From the NCBI GenBank assembly GCA_958009055.1, contig OY253653.1, positions 930,001 through 994,000 of the forward strand: DNA of 64,000 bases, read 5' to 3'. Origin of the DNA: Choricystis sp. odSpoLacu1 (taxonomy: Eukaryota; Chlorophyta; Trebouxiophyceae). Of the stretch, positions 19,353 through 47,930 are shown in pieces. The notes under the pieces were generated by a model. The model was not told the DNA's origin and searched no databases. It worked only from the letters and a program-made list of their open reading frames with translations. Both the position numbers and the translations under genes were made by a program. Every line of letters begins with the position of its first letter. Positions within the stretch are counted from its first letter, which is position 1.

Positions 19353-20573
19353 TCACGCGGCCCGCCACCGCCAGATTTTGCAAGTTGAACGCTTGTCACC
19401 GACTGCCACAACACCACCAGGCGCGACCGCCAGGGCGCGAGCATCAGTCACCCCGCCCAGCACCCCCCTCTCCGCGAACGAGGGCACGTCCCACACGCGC
19501 ACACACGCGTCGTCCGCGTGTGACGCCAGCAGCACAGCGCCACCGCGTGCATCGGTGGATCCTGCCAGCGCCAGCACGCCGCCAAAGCCGGCGGCGGCGG
19601 CGCCGCCCGGGGGGTGGGTGTAGGAGGGGGCGGGCTCAAGCACAGCGCCGGGGGCAGGCGGGTCGCGCGGTGCCCACACTTTGAGGGCGCCATCGAGGCC
19701 GGCTGTGACGACGTGCCCCTCCCACGTCAACGCGCCCATGATGACGCCATCGTGGGCACCGGGGATGGTTTGGACGGCGGTGGCGGCCGTCATGTCCCAC
19801 ACTTTGAGCGTGCCGTGCCAGTCCCCCGAAACCAGAAACGCGCCGGCTGGGGCCAACGCTTGCACGGGGGCGGCGTGGCCTCCACGCGCGGCATCCAGCA
19901 CACCGACAAGGCGGAACGTGGAGGCAGACGCGTCATGCCCCCACACGCGGATGGTGCCGTCCTGGCCGCCCGAAAAGAGGGACCCGGTGGCGGCAGCCAG
20001 GCACAACACTTGCCCGGTGTGGCCATCCAGCACGCACGTCCCGCCCGTGGCTAAGTGAAAACCCTTGACAGCACCCGCGTGAGTCGGTGTGTGCATGCCC
20101 ACAAACAGCCAGCCGCCCTCGAGCAACAAGGAGTCGACCGCGCCCCCGACGTCGACGACGGGGCCTGGCGCCCCGGTGTCCACAGACCATGCACGCACGG
20201 TGCCGTCCTGGGACCCGGTGTAGAGCGTGCCAGACGCTGCATCCAACGCGGCCGCCGTCACCTGCTTGCCGTGGCCGCGCAGGACGCGCACAAAGTCGAT
20301 GTCGGCAGGCTGGCCGTCGAAGCGGGCGGGGCCGGTCGCAAGTGGGGCGCCGCCCCGGCCGCCGCGGCCACGGTAGCCGCCGCGGGGGGCGCCTGTGAGA
20401 GGTGTGTGGTGTGTGGGAGGGGTGAGGAGGCGGGGAGGGGTGGGGGATCGGGTGCGTGCTGGGTGTCTCCTCCTCCCCATCGCCCTCCACCTCTCCCTCT
20501 CACCTCGCGCCCCCCACGTCGCGTTGCCGCGTCCACGCCCGCCTCGTCCTCCTCCCCCGCCGCCACCGTAGGC

Positions 20574-20607
<34 letters not shown>

Positions 20608-20699
20608 AGAAAGGACGACCCGTTCCGCCCGCCGCCGCCGCCGCGGTAGCCGCCGCGCCCGCCACGGCCGCGGCCGCGGTAGTCGCCCGTGTCCATCAT
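19353..20699 (-). CDS. ZFWD-like WD40 protein with RGG/polyQ N-terminus
   Basis: Exons 20699-20504 and 20392-19353 give 411 residues. The C-terminal 330 residues form a WD40 propeller whose order matches plant ZFWD proteins: GHGKQVTAAALD, YTGSQDGTVRAWSVDTG, GQDGTIRVWG, HDGVIMGALTWEGHVVTAGL, VPSFAERGVL, and a final KIWRW. Plant ZFWD proteins have one or more CCCH zinc fingers before the propeller. Here no Cys/His cluster exists; instead there are Arg-Gly-Gly repeats and a run of ten Gln. The RGG region still suggests RNA binding. The N-terminus looks like a lineage-specific replacement. Confidence 0.72.
20577..20607. repeat. (CTG)n trinucleotide run coding polyglutamine
   Basis: About ten CTG units on the plus strand, read as CAG on the minus strand, code the Gln run in the N-terminus of the WD40 protein. 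A pure trinucleotide run of this kind is likely length-variable between strains. Confidence 0.9.
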
Positions 20700-20900: not shown

Positions 20901-23797
20901 ATGCGAGGCGCGCTGCTGGCAGCGCGCTGGGCGCGCGCCGCGCCGCTCCACCGCCGTCGAGCCGCGGCGGCAGCCATGGGGGGCGACACGCCGGTGAGTG
21001 TGTGGGGGAGGAGCAAGAGATGATGCTTGTGTGTTTGAGAGAGAGAACAGAAAACCAACAAACCTCCCTCCTCTCTCTCACATAGCTCCAGCGCGCCGTC
21101 GTGCGACTTGTCGACGGCGACCCCTCCCTCACCATCACCCTCTCCCTCGCCGGCCGCACCCGCTACATGTCGCGCCCTCGGGGTGAACCCCTGGCCAAGT
21201 GCCTGGACCGCATGGCCCGGTCGGCCGCGCCCCCCGCCGCCAAAAAGCGGGGCGCGGCGGCGGTCGACGCGCCGCCCCCCGCCGTCTGCGACCCTGTTTT
21301 CCGACGCAGACCGCACACGCCCTGTCCCAGGCACCACCCCCAACGGCGACGCCTGGACGGCGGGCGGCCTGCTGGAGGTGGGGGGGGAAGCGTACTCGGT
21401 GGTCGTGAACCCACCGACTGTCGCGCGCGTGTCACTCAACGGCGCCCCCATCGTTGGCTGCCCCCTGGCCCCGGCCCTGGAGCTGGCGTTTGCGGAGAGG
21501 GAGGCGTGCCGTTACCAGTGGCAACGCAGGCGGGAGGCGGACGGGCGGCCGCCGGCTGCGTCTGCCGCGACGGGCGCGCCGCTCGCGCCGCCCCCCGCGC
21601 CCGGGGCAGACGGGTGGGAAGCCGTGACCGCCGACGACGGCAATGATGGCACGGGCCCATCCTACACGCCCACAGCCGACGACATTGGGTGGACGCTGCG
21701 CGTGGTGGTGACCCCCGGCAGCGTGGTGGGGGGGGGCGAGCCAGGCCCCTGGTTTGGCGACGCGGCCGTGGCCGTCGCGCCCGGCCCCACCGAGGCCGGC
21801 CCCCCGTCCCGCGCGTCAGACGGGCGCGCGGATCCAGTGCCGACTCCCACGACCCCGCCCCGCCTGCGTGTCGTCACCTACAACCTGCTGGCCGACCAAT
21901 ACGCTGCCACCGCCACAGCGAAAGACGTTTTGTTCGCGCACTGCCCCCCGCACCACCTGGACCCGTCCTACCGCCGCTCCCTGGCAGCGGCAGAACTCGT
22001 GTCCTATGCCGCAGACGTCATCTGTCTGCAGGAGGTGGACGAACGCGCGTTTGAGGGGGTGCTGGCCCCTGTGCTGGGGGCGGCCGGCTTCTGCGGCCGC
22101 CACACCAACAAGGCGTCGTCCGTGAGGGAGGGGGCGGCCCTGTTCTGGCGGGACGACAGGTTTGAGTGTGTGGCCTGGCGGGACGTCGTGCTGAAGGACG
22201 TGTTTGCAGTAGTGTTGCGGGGAGGGGAGGGTGGTGGCGAGGGTGGTGGCGGCGATGACGCCACCCCCACCCCATCCTCCCCCCCCTCCCTGGCCGCCCG
22301 CCACCAGCGCCTGCTGCCCGTGCTACAGTCATCCGCCTGGCTGCGGGACGCGCTGGCCAAGGTGTCCACCGTGGCCCAGGTCGGGTTGTTGGTGCCGCGC
22401 GGTCGCGCGGTCGCGCCACCCACTCCCGACACCCCCCTCCTCGTCACCAACACGCACCTCTTCTTCCACCCGGGCGCCCCCCACATCAGGACGCTGCACG
22501 TGGCGGCCGCGTTGACGGAGGCGGCGGACGTGGCGGACCGCGCACGCGCGGCGGGGGTCATCGTGATGCCCCCCGCGCCCCTTTTCTGTGGCGACCTCAA
22601 CTCAGACGTGAACGACGGCGTGCCCGGCACCGTGGAACTGTTGCGCGAGGGGGTGCTGTCGTCCGGCTTCTGGGACTGGGGGCTCGGCGCCTCGTTTCGG
22701 TATGATGCCGATGGGGTGGCCGACGCCGAGCCGGGGACGCCGCTTGCACCGCCCAGTCCCCGCACCGCGCCGCGCGACGGCCTCACCCCCACCGACATCA
22801 CCATCCCGTTCCACCTGGCCCCCTCCGACGGGCTGGCCACCCCCTACACCAACCTCGTGCGCGGGTACGCGGGCCTGCTGGACTATGTGTGGACGGATGA
22901 GCGTGTGCTGAAACCTGTGGGTGGCCCGCCCCCCCCCCCTCGACCGCGTGTGTGGCGAGGACTTCATCCCCAACGCCGTCTTCCCCTCCGACCACGTCGC
23001 CGTCATCGCCGACCTGGAGTGGAAGCCGATGGAGGAGCGGGACGCGGTGTGGGTGGCGGGCGGGGGCGCGTCGCCGACCCCGCGCGGGCGCCCGCCCCCC
23101 CCCCTTTGCGCCGCCGCGCGCCGGCGGCCCCCCCGCCCCCTCCGTCGCCGCCGACGACGCCGGCCTGGCCGCCTCCCTGCTGGCCCTGCGCTCGGGCGCC
23201 CTACTCCTGTTGCCCACGGACACGCTGTACGGGGTGGGGGCGGACGCGTGCTGCCCGTCCGCTGTACAAGCTGTTTACGCGGCGAAAGGGCGGGACAGCC
23301 ACGTTCCGCTTGCGATTTCAGTCGCCGACGTTGACGACGTGGGGAGGTATGGCGACGTGACGAGTCTTCCCGCCGGCCTGCTGGATGCCCTGCTTCCCGG
23401 CGCAGTCACCGTGTTGCTGACGCGGCGCCCAGACGCGCCGCTCTCGGCCGCGCTCAACCCAGGCGTCGCCACCGTCGGCGTGCGCGTCCCTGCCGCCCCC
23501 TGGATCCGGTCCCTGGCCCGGGCCCACGGCGGCGCCATCGCCCTGACGTCGGCCAACGAGTCGGGGTGCCCGCCCGCGCGCACAGTGGATGAAGCTGCCG
23601 CGATCGTTGGCGCGGTGTCGATTGTTGTCGACGCAGGCACCGTGGGCGCCGGCAGGGCGGGATCCACAGTGGTCGACCTGTCGGCTGTGACCGGCACGGA
23701 CCCCCCGCACAACGCGTACGCGGTGCTGCGGGAGGGGGAGGGGGTGGAGGGGGTGCGGGCGGTGTTGCGGGAGTGTGGGTTGGTCGAAGCGGTGTGA
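20901..23797 (+). CDS. PDE12-like phosphodiesterase fused to YrdC/Sua5 domain, mitochondrial
   Basis: Exon 1 (20901-20993) codes a 31-residue Arg/Ala-rich mitochondrial-type leader; exon 2 starts at 21086. First half: the PDE12 N-terminal domain (VNPPTVARVSLNGAPIVGCP, YTPTADDIGWTLRV), then the EEP nuclease fold with RVVTYNLLADQYA, DVICLQEVDERAF, NTHLFFHP, FCGDLNSDVNDG and VFPSDHVAVIADLEW. PDE12 is a mitochondrial deadenylase and 2',5'-phosphodiesterase. Second half: a complete YrdC domain (LLPTDTLYGVGADA, AVYAAKGRDSHVPLAI, LLPGAVTVLLTRRP, GAIALTSANESG, GSTVVDLS), which makes threonylcarbamoyl-AMP for tRNA t6A37. The frame changes at three C runs (21275-21280, 22929-22939, 23095-23104), each repaired by one fewer C. 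No convincing ATG or spacer separates the halves. Two overlapping genes remain possible. Confidence 0.74.
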
Positions 23798-23859: not shown

Positions 23860-24579
23860 ATGGCCGCCTCTGCCGCCCGCCCCTTTGCGCCGCGGGCGCG
23901 CGCAGCCGCCCGGCGGCGGGCCGCGCCGGCGGTCGTGTCGCCGCGCGGCGCGGTGGGCCGGCCGACGTCGGTAAGAGGGAGAGCGAGAGAGGCCGCCGCG
24001 AAAAGGCGCACACGGCGTGTGGTGTCCTCGGTGTGCACGCACGACGTCTCAATGCTGCGTGTGATTGGGGGGGGAGAGGCGGAAGGAGAGAGACGCAGAG
24101 TCAGACAGACACCCCCGACCCACCCCCCCCCGCTGACCCTTTTCCACTCAGCCTCCACCCACTCCCTCCACCACGCCCCACGCCCTCGTCGCCGCCCTGG
24201 CCTCCGCCGGCGCCCTGGAGACCGCCTACCTGACGTGGGCCAAGCTGGCGCACGCGCCGGTGGCCTGCCCGTCGGGTGGCGGCGGGTGCGCGTCGGTGCT
24301 TGGATCAGACTATGCCACCCTGTTGGGCGCCATCCCCCTGCCCGCGGTGGGCTGTGCCACCTACGCCATCGTGGCGGGGCTGGCCGCCCGCCGGGCTGCG
24401 GGCGCGGACGACGGGGACGGCCCCCTGGCGGCGGGCGCGGCCGCGCTAGCCACTGCAAGCGCGGCACTGATCACCCTTTTAACCACCCGCTTCTCCGCTG
24501 AACCGTGCGCCTGGTGCTGGACGTCGGCGGGGCTGTCGGCCGCCATTGCGGCGGCCGTGTTTGGGGGCATGGGGTCGAG

Positions 24580-24615
<36 letters not shown>

Positions 24616-25183
24616 CAGGGAGGGAGGGAGGAAGAAACACGCAGACAGAGGCTCACCCTTTCCTCCCTTCTCACACAGCCAACTCAAAGCCGTGGCCCTG
24701 CCCTCCGCGTCAGCCGCCCTCGCCACCGTGCTCGCCCTCACCCTGTCGTGGGCCGGCATCGACCCTCCGTCCGCGTTCGCTGCCGATTCCCTCCCCTTTG
24801 CCGAGCCCGAGCTGACGCGCACCTCGTCCCGGCGCGCTCTCGACCTCGCCCGCCGCCTGCGCGCCGCCGGCGCCCGCATGTACGGCGCCTTCTGGTGCTC
24901 CCACTGCTTTGAGCAGAGGCAAGCGTTTGGCGTGGGCGCGGCTGCCGACCTCCCTTACGTGGAGTGCTACCCCAACGGCTTCTCCCGGGGCGCCGGCCCC
25001 GCCCCCGCCTGCGTGGCCGCCGGCATTGAAGGATTCCCCTCCTGGGTGGTTGGGGGGGAGACGCTGGAGGGGGAACAGAGTTTTGGGGAGTTGGACGCTG
25101 CGCTCGCGCGCGCGGCCGCGCGCGGCGCGGTGAGGGCAGCGGGGGCGGGGGCGGGGCTTTCGGTGGCGCCGAGTTTGAGGTGA
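23860..25183 (+). CDS. LTO1: Thylakoid VKOR-thioredoxin disulfide oxidoreductase (LTO1-like)
   Basis: Forms disulfide bonds in thylakoid-lumen proteins. Exons are 23860-23970, 24152-24579 and 24679-25183, about 347 residues. The first 37 residues are a transit peptide. The VKOR domain follows: TAYLTWAKLAHAPVACPSGG then CASVLGSDYATLLGAIPL, with the paired loop cysteines, and the active-site CAWC motif (EPCAWCWTSAGLS). After the last membrane helix comes the lumenal thioredoxin-like domain with the redox motif CSHC (MYGAFWCSHCFEQRQAF) and VECYPNGFSRG. The same fusion order is found in plants and cyanobacteria. Transcribed in the same direction as, and only 62 bases after, the PDE12-YrdC gene. 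Confidence 0.92.
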
Positions 25184-44991: not shown

Positions 44992-47356
44992 ATGCCGGCG
45001 CGACCGGCGCTGCCGCTCGCGGCGGCGCTGCTGCTGCTGCTCCTCGCCGCCGCCGCCGCCGCCCCCGACGGCGCCGCCGCCCGACGCCCGTCCGACGGAC
45101 ACACGGCGGGTGGCGACGCCGCCGGCGCGGCCCCCACCCCCGCGCCGAGCGGGTCCAAAACAATCGCGCAGCGCATCGACGAAGCGTTGGAAAACGAGTT
45201 TCCGAAAGCTGCCGACCCCGCCGTCGGCAAGACTTACAGCGAGAAGGCTAAATCGGATGATGTGAGTGGAGTGTGGGTGGATGTGGGGAGGGGAGGGGGC
45301 GCGTGGGCGGTCGAGTTTTGTTTGTTTCTCGACGCGCCAGGAAAGCGGGGGCGGCGGTCCGCGCCTCCCACCACCAACCAACCAACCAACCCACACACAA
45401 CTCACAGGCCACCGTCGAAACCGTCGTCAAGGTGTCTTCCAAAGCCCGCGCCGACGACGCCCGCCGCCCGGCCGCGGACAAGCTGCCGGTGCCGACGCCG
45501 CCCTCCCCGCCGCCGCCCACGCCCCCCCCCCGCACTTCGTGGTGGCCCGACCCCCACGCCGCTGAGAAGGAGGCCCGCGCCGCCCGCGAAGCCGCGGCCG
45601 CGGCCGCCGTCGCCAAGCGGGTGCGGGACGCGGGGGCGGCGGCCGCGACCGCGCGCGCGGCGGCGGATGCTGCCGCGGCATCCGCCGGCGCCACTGAAGC
45701 CGACGTCGACCGCATCATCGACTCCCAGGACAATGAGTACGTGCTGTCCCGGCCCAAGGATGCGGGGGCGGGGTTGATGCTGGACCCACAGCTGGTGCGC
45801 GATTTGACGGTGGTCATGGCGGCCGCGACCGCGGGCGGCGCGGCGCTGGAGTCCGCGGGCCAGCCCCAAATCAGCGGCTACTTTCTCGCCGGCTCAGCCG
45901 TCGGCCCGGGCGGCCTGCGCCTCGTCAAAGAGATCGTGCAGGTCGAGTCCCTGGCCCAGCTGGGGGTGCAGCTGCTGCTTTTCACGCTCGGCCTCGAATC
46001 CTCCGGCGCAAAACTGCGCGCCGTGCGCGGCGTCGCCCTCGGCGGCGGCGCCATCCAGTTGGCCGTGTTCACGGGGCTGGGGGGCGTGGGGGCGCGTGCC
46101 CTGGGCGGGTCGGTGGCGCTGGTGAGGCAGAGGAGAGACAGAGAGGGGGGGGGGGGTGCGTGGAGGGGGGGACCGCGCGCGAAGCACGACCTCACCCCCG
46201 TCCGCCACCCTCCCCCCCCTGTCCACAGGGCCTCTTCATCGGCGCCCTCGTCGCCATGTCCTCCACCTCCGTCGTCGTCAAATGCCTGGCGGACGCGCCC
46301 CGGTCCACGCCGTCGCGCACAGGGTCGATTGTTATAGGGACGCTCATCCTCCAAGACTGCGCGGTCGGCCTCCTGTTTGCTGCCACGCCCGCCCTCGCCC
46401 ACGCCGCCCGCGGAGGCGCCGTCACGCGGGCGGGTGTGGCAGCTCTCGCAGGCCGCACTGCCGCCTCATTGATCGCATTCGTCGGCGGCGCGGCCGTCCT
46501 GTCGCGCGCTGTGCTCCCCCGCGCGGCCTCCGCGCTCGGCCGCACCGCCTCCGCCGAGCTCTACCAACTCGCCGTCCTCTCCTACTGCCTCCTCGCAGGC
46601 TGGGCCTCCTCCTCCCTGGGCCTGTCCTCCGAACTGGGCGCCTTTGTGGCGGGCGCCGCGCTGGCCCCCTCCGACCAGCGCGAGCGCGCGGCCGCGGCAC
46701 TCGAACCCGCCAAAGCCCTCTTCCTCGCCCTCTTCATTGCCTCCACCGGCCTCGTCATGTCGCCCCGGTTTCTGCTGGCCCACGCCCGCGTCCTGGTGGG
46801 GGGGCTGCTGCTGACGGTGGCGGTCAAGGCGGGAGTCGTGGCGGCCGTGGTCCGCGCGTGTGGCGCCCCCCCGCGCTCCGCCTTCGCCGTCGGCCTCGCC
46901 CTCGCCCAAATCTCCGAGTTTGCGTTTGTGCTGCTGTCTGCCGCCAGTCAGGCGGGCCTGCTGACGTTCAAGCTGTACCAACTGTTGATGGGCGTCACCG
47001 CGCTCTCGCTGCTGGCGACGCCCTTCCTGGTGAGGGCGGCTGCTTCACTCGCCTCTGCAGGCACCCCCCCCGGCGCCCCCGCCCCACACGACAGCCCCCC
47101 CCCCCCCCCCGTCTGGAGGCAAGTGGGGGGGGGGGGGGGCGGCGGCCGACCAGTCCCGATGTCGAGGGCGGCGACGCGGCGACCGCGTCCCCGCCGCCGC
47201 CGCGGGGGGCGGGGGGGGCGGGGGGGCGGGACGGGGAGGCGCGCAGATTGTTGCAGCGGCACACGGGGAGTGGGGAGGGGTGAGTGGGGGGAAGGGAGGG
47301 AGGGAGGGGGGGGACGTGTTTTTCGAGGGGGGGGGGGGGTGACGCGGTGTTTTTAG
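44992..47356 (+). CDS. KEA-type K+/H+ antiporter (CPA2 family)
   Basis: Cation/proton antiporter of the endomembrane KEA4-6/TMCO3 kind. Exons are 44992-45261, 45408-46121 and 46229 onward. A signal peptide (ALPLAAALLLLLLAAAAAAP) is followed by a long lumenal, Ala/Lys-rich helical region. The transporter domain has SGYFLAGSAVGPGGLRLVKE, QLGVQLLLFTLGLE, AMSSTSVVVKCL, GTLILQDCAVGLLFA, LGAFVAGAALA and AVGLALAQISEFAFVLLSAA, matching KEA proteins; the Gln-Asp pair of the ion site is in LILQDC. The C-terminal tail after a C16 run (47095-47110) and G15 run (47125-47139) is unreliable: one frame stops at 47356, another at 47283. No KTN domain is seen, unlike KEA1-3. Confidence 0.85.
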
Positions 47357-47930
47357 AACAGGGAGGAGGGGGGGGGGGGGGACTGCCTTGTTGAGGTGTC
47401 GATGGGTAGCATGACGTTTGTTCGTTTCACACGCGGGGGGGGGCGCGGTGGTGAGACCGCCGGGCCGCAGGAGGGGGTGGGCTGTGCGGAGGGACGGACA
47501 GGCGAAGCGGCAAAAAAGGGCGGGAGCCGGCAAAACGTTGTGTGTTTTTAGTGCGCGCCGACTCGGAAGCGAGGCTTTTACCACCCGACCGCCCCCGCCC
47601 CGCCGCCCCCCTCAAATCGCGCACGCGGTCCACCAGAGCGTGGGGGGAAACGGAAGCGCCACGCCTGCGTGTGAAAGGTGTGTGTGTGTGTGTGTGTTTG
47701 CGCGACGGCGCTCTCCATTGCCGCGACGGAGCCCCCCTTCCTGACGCCCCCCTCCGCGCGCGCCCGTCCCCCACGCCCCCTCACCGCGTAGGCGAGGATA
47801 CAGCGGTGACTGCTGCGTGGGCCAAGCCTGCGATGCGCGGCGGGAGACGCCTGCGTGGACACCACACGCTTCATTCACTCACGCCCGTCGCCTCCCCCCC
47901 CCCCCCTCCGACCCACCCACAGCAAAAACC
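47357..47930. other. Intergenic region with G-rich and CA/TG tracts
   Basis: 574 bases between same-strand genes. G runs from the end of the KEA gene continue to about 47480. A TG repeat lies at 47676-47700 and a C run just before the next ATG. CCACAG at 47917-47922 could be a splice acceptor for an unseen upstream exon of the BED gene. No independent gene was recognised. Confidence 0.5.

Follow-up and report, generated by a model that had tools for sequence, protein, structure and literature searches.

In this study, we analysed a 64-kb window (positions 930,001 to 994,000 of contig OY253653.1) from the green alga Choricystis sp. odSpoLacu1, and we believe from sequence comparison that one of its genes encodes a real and conserved fusion of a PDE12-like EEP nuclease with a TsaC/YrdC domain. 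Databases carry such fused proteins, named after one half or the other, and no description of an EEP–YrdC fusion was found in searches of open-licence papers. The window belongs to a genome of 14.6 Mb in 19 contigs, and its GC content is 64–78% in 2-kb steps. The leader, PDE12-like N-domain, EEP domain and YrdC domain proposed on the forward strand by the initial annotation were all found, the N-domain by a marginal match, and a GT-AG intron is added here to that gene structure. The annotation had corrected two C-runs; both of these frame breaks were seen in the sequence, and a third, at a C6 run, had been missed. The parts of the gene are listed below, with identities to the related protein P0002.
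20901 to 23797, forward strand: fused gene, from ATG 20901 to TGA 23795-23797, in the order leader, PDE12-like N-domain, EEP, linker, YrdC
20901..20993, forward strand: exon 1, the Arg-rich leader up to the second in-frame Met, read from the sequence (identity 26/31)
20976..20978, forward strand: the second ATG in frame (gcagccATGG), where a cytosolic form may start
20994..21085, forward strand: GT-AG intron (gtgagt...acatag) after the leader exon, falling between codons, read from the sequence
21086..21280, forward strand: N-terminal motif region, ending at the first frame break (identity 55/64)
21275-21280, forward strand: C6 run, first frame break, a frame step in the sequence
21411..21722, forward strand: PDE12-like N-terminal domain, profile match to PF21171
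21861..23022, forward strand: EEP nuclease domain, bearing the motifs YN, QE, NTH, GDxN and SDH, with the C11 break inside it
22929-22939, forward strand: C11 run, second frame break, inside EEP; P0002 is uninterrupted here
23023..23182, forward strand: linker, holding the C10 run (identity 35/54)
23095-23104, forward strand: C10 run, third frame break, a frame step in the linker
23183..23797, forward strand: TsaC/YrdC domain (PF01300), ending in the TGA stop 23795-23797

The nuclease matched PF03372 (EEP) with 30.1 bits, above the cut-off of 24.5, and the PDE12 structure 4zkf with an E value of 4.1e-39. All five EEP motifs, which we take to have roles in the nuclease, were found in both the window pieces and P0002. 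The marginal PF21171 match reached 23.3 bits against a cut-off of 27 in one scan and 27.0 bits, over the cut-off, in the genome scan. The YrdC part matched PF01300 with 132.5 bits (E 1.5e-38) and has the KxR/SxN tetrad (KGR at 23285-23293, SAN at 23549-23557); PF01300 was the sole match in the YrdC frame at E values up to 1, with no SUA5 domain behind it, and the YrdC domain forms the C-terminal end of the protein. P0002 runs across the fusion in a single uninterrupted frame and is identical to the window pieces at 162/194 residues of the N-domain, 335/385 of EEP and 189/202 of YrdC. A tblastn search of the region with P0002 gave three pieces, none over the main EEP stretch, which is covered by a global alignment. 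At the position of the window intron 20994-21085, P0002 has a 36-residue in-frame insert, apparently its own unspliced intron. In its predicted-structure model, the predicted local distance difference test score (pLDDT) is below 50 for residues 721-745, in the linker.

In three protein searches, 43 different rows were obtained, including the window's own frame (P0001), and precomputed Pfam matches place PF01300 and PF03372 in one protein in 26 of them, the combination that the annotation had proposed to look for in other green algae. Like the 4zkf and PF01300 matches, this co-occurrence goes far past what chance would give. Both domains occurred in 20 of 32, 11 of 11 (with the YrdC part as query) and 7 of 12 rows per search; each search scored only the approximately 8000 candidates with the most words in common, so that the fused counts are not frequencies. 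The named fused rows come from Elliptochloris bilobata, Micractinium conductrix, Micractinium sp., Myrmecia bisecta, Trebouxia sp. C0005 and Tetradesmus obliquus; Elliptochloris, Micractinium and Trebouxia belong to the Trebouxiophyceae and Tetradesmus to the Chlorophyceae. One fused row, P0017, is an MMETSP transcriptome record in a single frame. The alignment took 23 of the 26 fused rows (P0036-P0038 were left out), and both families matched in all 23. All five EEP motifs were present in 25/26 fused rows, and KxR with SAN in 23/26, the same 23 that carry the complete motif sets of both enzymes; the exceptions are P0024, whose record stops before SAN, P0035, which has no KxR, and P0038, whose model strays. 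P0024 (ENA, 799 aa) also has a hydrophobic, signal-like leader unlike the other rows, and perhaps has another destination or comes from another algal group.

The domain trees broadly agree. In the EEP tree (31 rows, midpoint root), all 25 fused rows, the window included, form one starred group of 27 rows together with P0013 and P0025, which lie near the Tetradesmus row P0035; the unfused P0029, P0030, P0039 and P0040 lie outside, P0029 and P0030 on very long branches. Built from 24 rows, the YrdC tree shares with it the groups window+P0002, P0005/6/8, P0007/9/10, P0012/16, P0014/15, P0017/36 and P0033/34, but leaves 8 of 21 inner branches open. Being incomplete, P0024 and P0038 entered neither tree and P0035 entered the EEP tree only; of the 17 rows that do not carry both domains, 6 were included. 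One old fusion fits this pattern, with YrdC perhaps lost or decayed afterwards. Because of the uninterrupted relative, the 26 fused proteins, the transcriptome record and the broadly agreeing trees, we are highly confident that the gene makes one real polypeptide, as had been suggested.

In this assembly, PF21171 was found at the fusion locus and nowhere else, DNA 22600-23797 matched itself only, and PF01300 was found at two loci, the fusion gene and the following one.
C2:298167-301742: L002, second PF01300 locus, YciO-like

Passages of PMC3223725 and PMC10321239 describe the KxR...SxN tetrad as separating YrdC from YciO. L002 lacks this tetrad (SAN is replaced by SAS, and KGR is not kept) and has the motif PTDS, the same as E. 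coli YciO, and for these two reasons we call it YciO-like; it matches Sua5 and YciO structures about equally and scored 100.2 bits on TIGR00057, where the cut-off is 123.2. By eye, L002 adjoins a carbamate-kinase-like frame on the opposite strand. That leaves the fusion gene as the one tetrad-bearing PF01300 locus of this assembly. On the transferase side, L014 exceeded the TsaD cut-off (303.6 vs 296.1 bits), while the adjacent L015 and L016 scored best on Kae1-type models as partial pieces below the full-length cut-offs and are read as exons of one gene. One canonical threonylcarbamoyl-AMP (TC-AMP) synthase therefore appears to face two transferase systems in this assembly, a picture that a more complete assembly could change. 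As the sole tetrad-bearing YrdC, the fusion protein would serve both the Kae1-type and the TsaD-type transferase, whose compartments we infer from the family types.

The gene has two candidate starts, ATG 20901 (ggtgcATGC) and, in frame and 25 codons downstream, ATG 20976 (gcagccATGG). By the Kozak rule, which is not calibrated in this genome, the first context reads as weak and the second as strong. The leader has 6 Arg and no Asp or Glu over 25 residues. In the leader survey, which covered the 16 rows reaching the N-terminal motif, the window included (11 fused rows fall short), a leader of 25-52 residues followed by an internal Met was found in 10; P0015 and P0037 were dropped from the leader rows because their Met lies inside the motif region. 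According to passages of PMC5951830, yeast Sua5 is a dual-start gene that reaches two compartments through a second in-frame ATG after the leader, and human YRDC has a dual location through a weak leader.

We propose that one protein holds two predicted enzymes, a PDE12-type 3'-exonuclease and, behind a flexible linker, a TsaC/YrdC that would make TC-AMP for N6-threonylcarbamoyladenosine at position 37 (t6A37) of tRNA. Starting at the first ATG, a mitochondrial form would supply TC-AMP to the TsaD-type transferase, and a cytosolic form from the second ATG would serve Kae1/KEOPS. The fusion would have been kept because the leader of PDE12 carries TsaC into mitochondria, so that PDE12 may be a carrier and not a catalytic partner; any benefit of placing the two activities beside one mitochondrial tRNA (mt-tRNA) would be secondary. 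As a whole, we consider this explanation the best and somewhat probable, and we give the dual-start carrier mechanism itself about an even chance.

Several observations weigh against this proposal. Six of the 16 surveyed rows have no leader and begin at the motif, and the leader rows include close kin (window/P0002, P0012/P0016 and P0033/P0034). The amphipathic moment was above that of shuffles in none of the 10 leaders (249-743 of 1000 shuffles were as high), which speaks against a classic presequence; an amphipathic leader in the window was likewise rejected, with 628/1000 shuffles as high. P0013 and P0025 stop after EEP, and the Tetradesmus row P0035 lacks KxR. A passage of PMC10321239 places Sua5 among green algae in the Chlorophyceae only. 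The missing KxR of P0035 would fit a relaxed need in this class, but an error in the gene model is equally likely; the three Tetradesmus-like rows could together reflect a takeover by Sua5 in the Chlorophyceae or faulty gene models, and P0013 and P0025 could also have been cut by introns or contig ends. Finally, the window gene itself holds three frame breaks within 2.9 kb, and P0001 reads through the C11 and C10 runs in the window's frame. The contig of P0001 has 631,870 bases against 1,219,714 for that of the window, so a second assembly may show the same runs, though P0001 may derive from the same raw data. For the 48 C or G runs of at least 8 bases in the window, the coding frame is kept across 12 and altered across one, which lies in this gene, and the other 35 give no information; by this crude method, run errors are not general in the window.

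The three breaks, the frame of P0001 and the runs that keep frame elsewhere would also suit a gene that is truly broken in the strain, with real runs and a sequence that is decaying or reliant on C-run slippage. We regard this as improbable. Every piece of the frame is conserved in comparison with P0002, the YrdC piece most strongly, and a gene unreadable in vivo would leave this genome without its one tetrad-bearing TsaC; a passage of PMC3223725 reports yrdC to be essential in E. coli. Since P0002 is uninterrupted and the pieces are conserved, we take the breaks to be run-length errors or tolerated variants and not gene ends. A 26-base gt...ag stretch at 21284-21309 was considered as an intron causing the first break and was rejected, as by hand it failed to restore the frame. 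When a coding-frame model was applied to the window, a direct shift was called at the third break alone, which is weak evidence in either direction. The join of EEP to YrdC had been thought to depend on both long runs. The C10 run is indeed the sole break between the two domains; the C11 run lies inside EEP and matters for the nuclease itself, because the SDH motif (22987-22995) follows it. Genes here are tightly packed, the next likely ATG (23860) lying 62 bases past the fusion stop, so that a PDE12 gene could in principle end where a separate YrdC gene starts. We find this very hard to accept and rejected separate genes on the linker Met counts and the uninterrupted relatives: the only ATG in 22986-23300, at 23029, precedes the C10 break, belongs to the EEP frame and corresponds to Val in P0002, and the window sequence has no YrdC-frame ATG between EEP and YrdC, in keeping with the earlier view that no sensible start lies there. 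Between SDH and PTDT, 15 of the 26 fused relatives have no Met, those of the other 11 stand at no common place, and P0002 and P0017 are single frames. A different function is conceivable for the same polypeptide, namely the coupling proposed in the initial annotation, a tRNA maturation unit in which PDE12 strips stray 3' A from mt-tRNAs and TsaC, being tethered, provides TC-AMP on the spot for t6A37 of these tRNAs. Passages of PMC9181182 and PMC8348895 report that human PDE12 removes stray adenylation from 16S rRNA and mt-tRNAs, a passage of PMC5951830 attributes t6A on human mt-tRNAs to YRDC with OSGEPL1, and both motif sets are kept in 23/26 fused proteins. However, the TsaC product is a small intermediate and the transferase (L014) is a separate protein, while the disordered linker of the P0002 model and a SDH-to-PTDT spacing of 33 to 105 residues among fused proteins indicate no fixed arrangement, and we consider such a unit rather unlikely.

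The algal protein was compared with its closest known systems. The solved chain of human PDE12 (4zkf, 4z0v, 4z2b) ends with EEP at residue 609, without YrdC. Compared with TsaC/YrdC and Sua5 (T. maritima TsaC2, P. abyssi Sua5 and E. coli YrdC), the algal protein adds a PDE12 module in front, and it lacks the SUA5 domain that stands behind TsaC in Sua5. It would resemble yeast Sua5 in using one TC-AMP synthase gene for two compartments, whereas the dual start is reported in yeast (PMC5951830) and would in the alga be a prediction from sequence. HypF, TobZ and TsaN (8ide, TsaD-TsaC-SUA5-TcdA) likewise hold a YrdC-type domain inside a multidomain protein; their partners include Kae1/TsaD-type domains, according in part to a passage of PMC9654439. 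A nuclease is among the partners of none of the three.

Two genes flank the fusion gene.
19356-20699, reverse strand: WD40-repeat gene (WD40 match) with an RGG-rich start, divergent
23860-25183, forward strand: VKOR-family gene (PF07884, 58.4 bits)

The WD40 gene starts approximately 200 bases from the fusion gene, and the two may have a common promoter region. By eye, the product of the VKOR-family gene is a VKOR-thioredoxin protein (LTO1-type). At 47064-47443 lies a cluster of eight homopolymer runs (C or G, 8-16 bases), in DNA that a simple frame model calls non-coding. Neither an Rfam scan nor a tRNA scan of the window gave any match.

The fusion bears on how one TC-AMP synthase is delivered to several compartments in eukaryotes. 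It also offers a genetic handle, as mt-tRNA 3' ends and t6A should both respond to this one gene. We tentatively speculate that in many green algae TC-AMP may be made through a single dual-started PDE12-TsaC. The quality control of tRNA 3' ends and the supply of t6A would then always be expressed together and travel together into mitochondria, perhaps also into plastids, and t6A dosage would depend on an RNA deadenylase.
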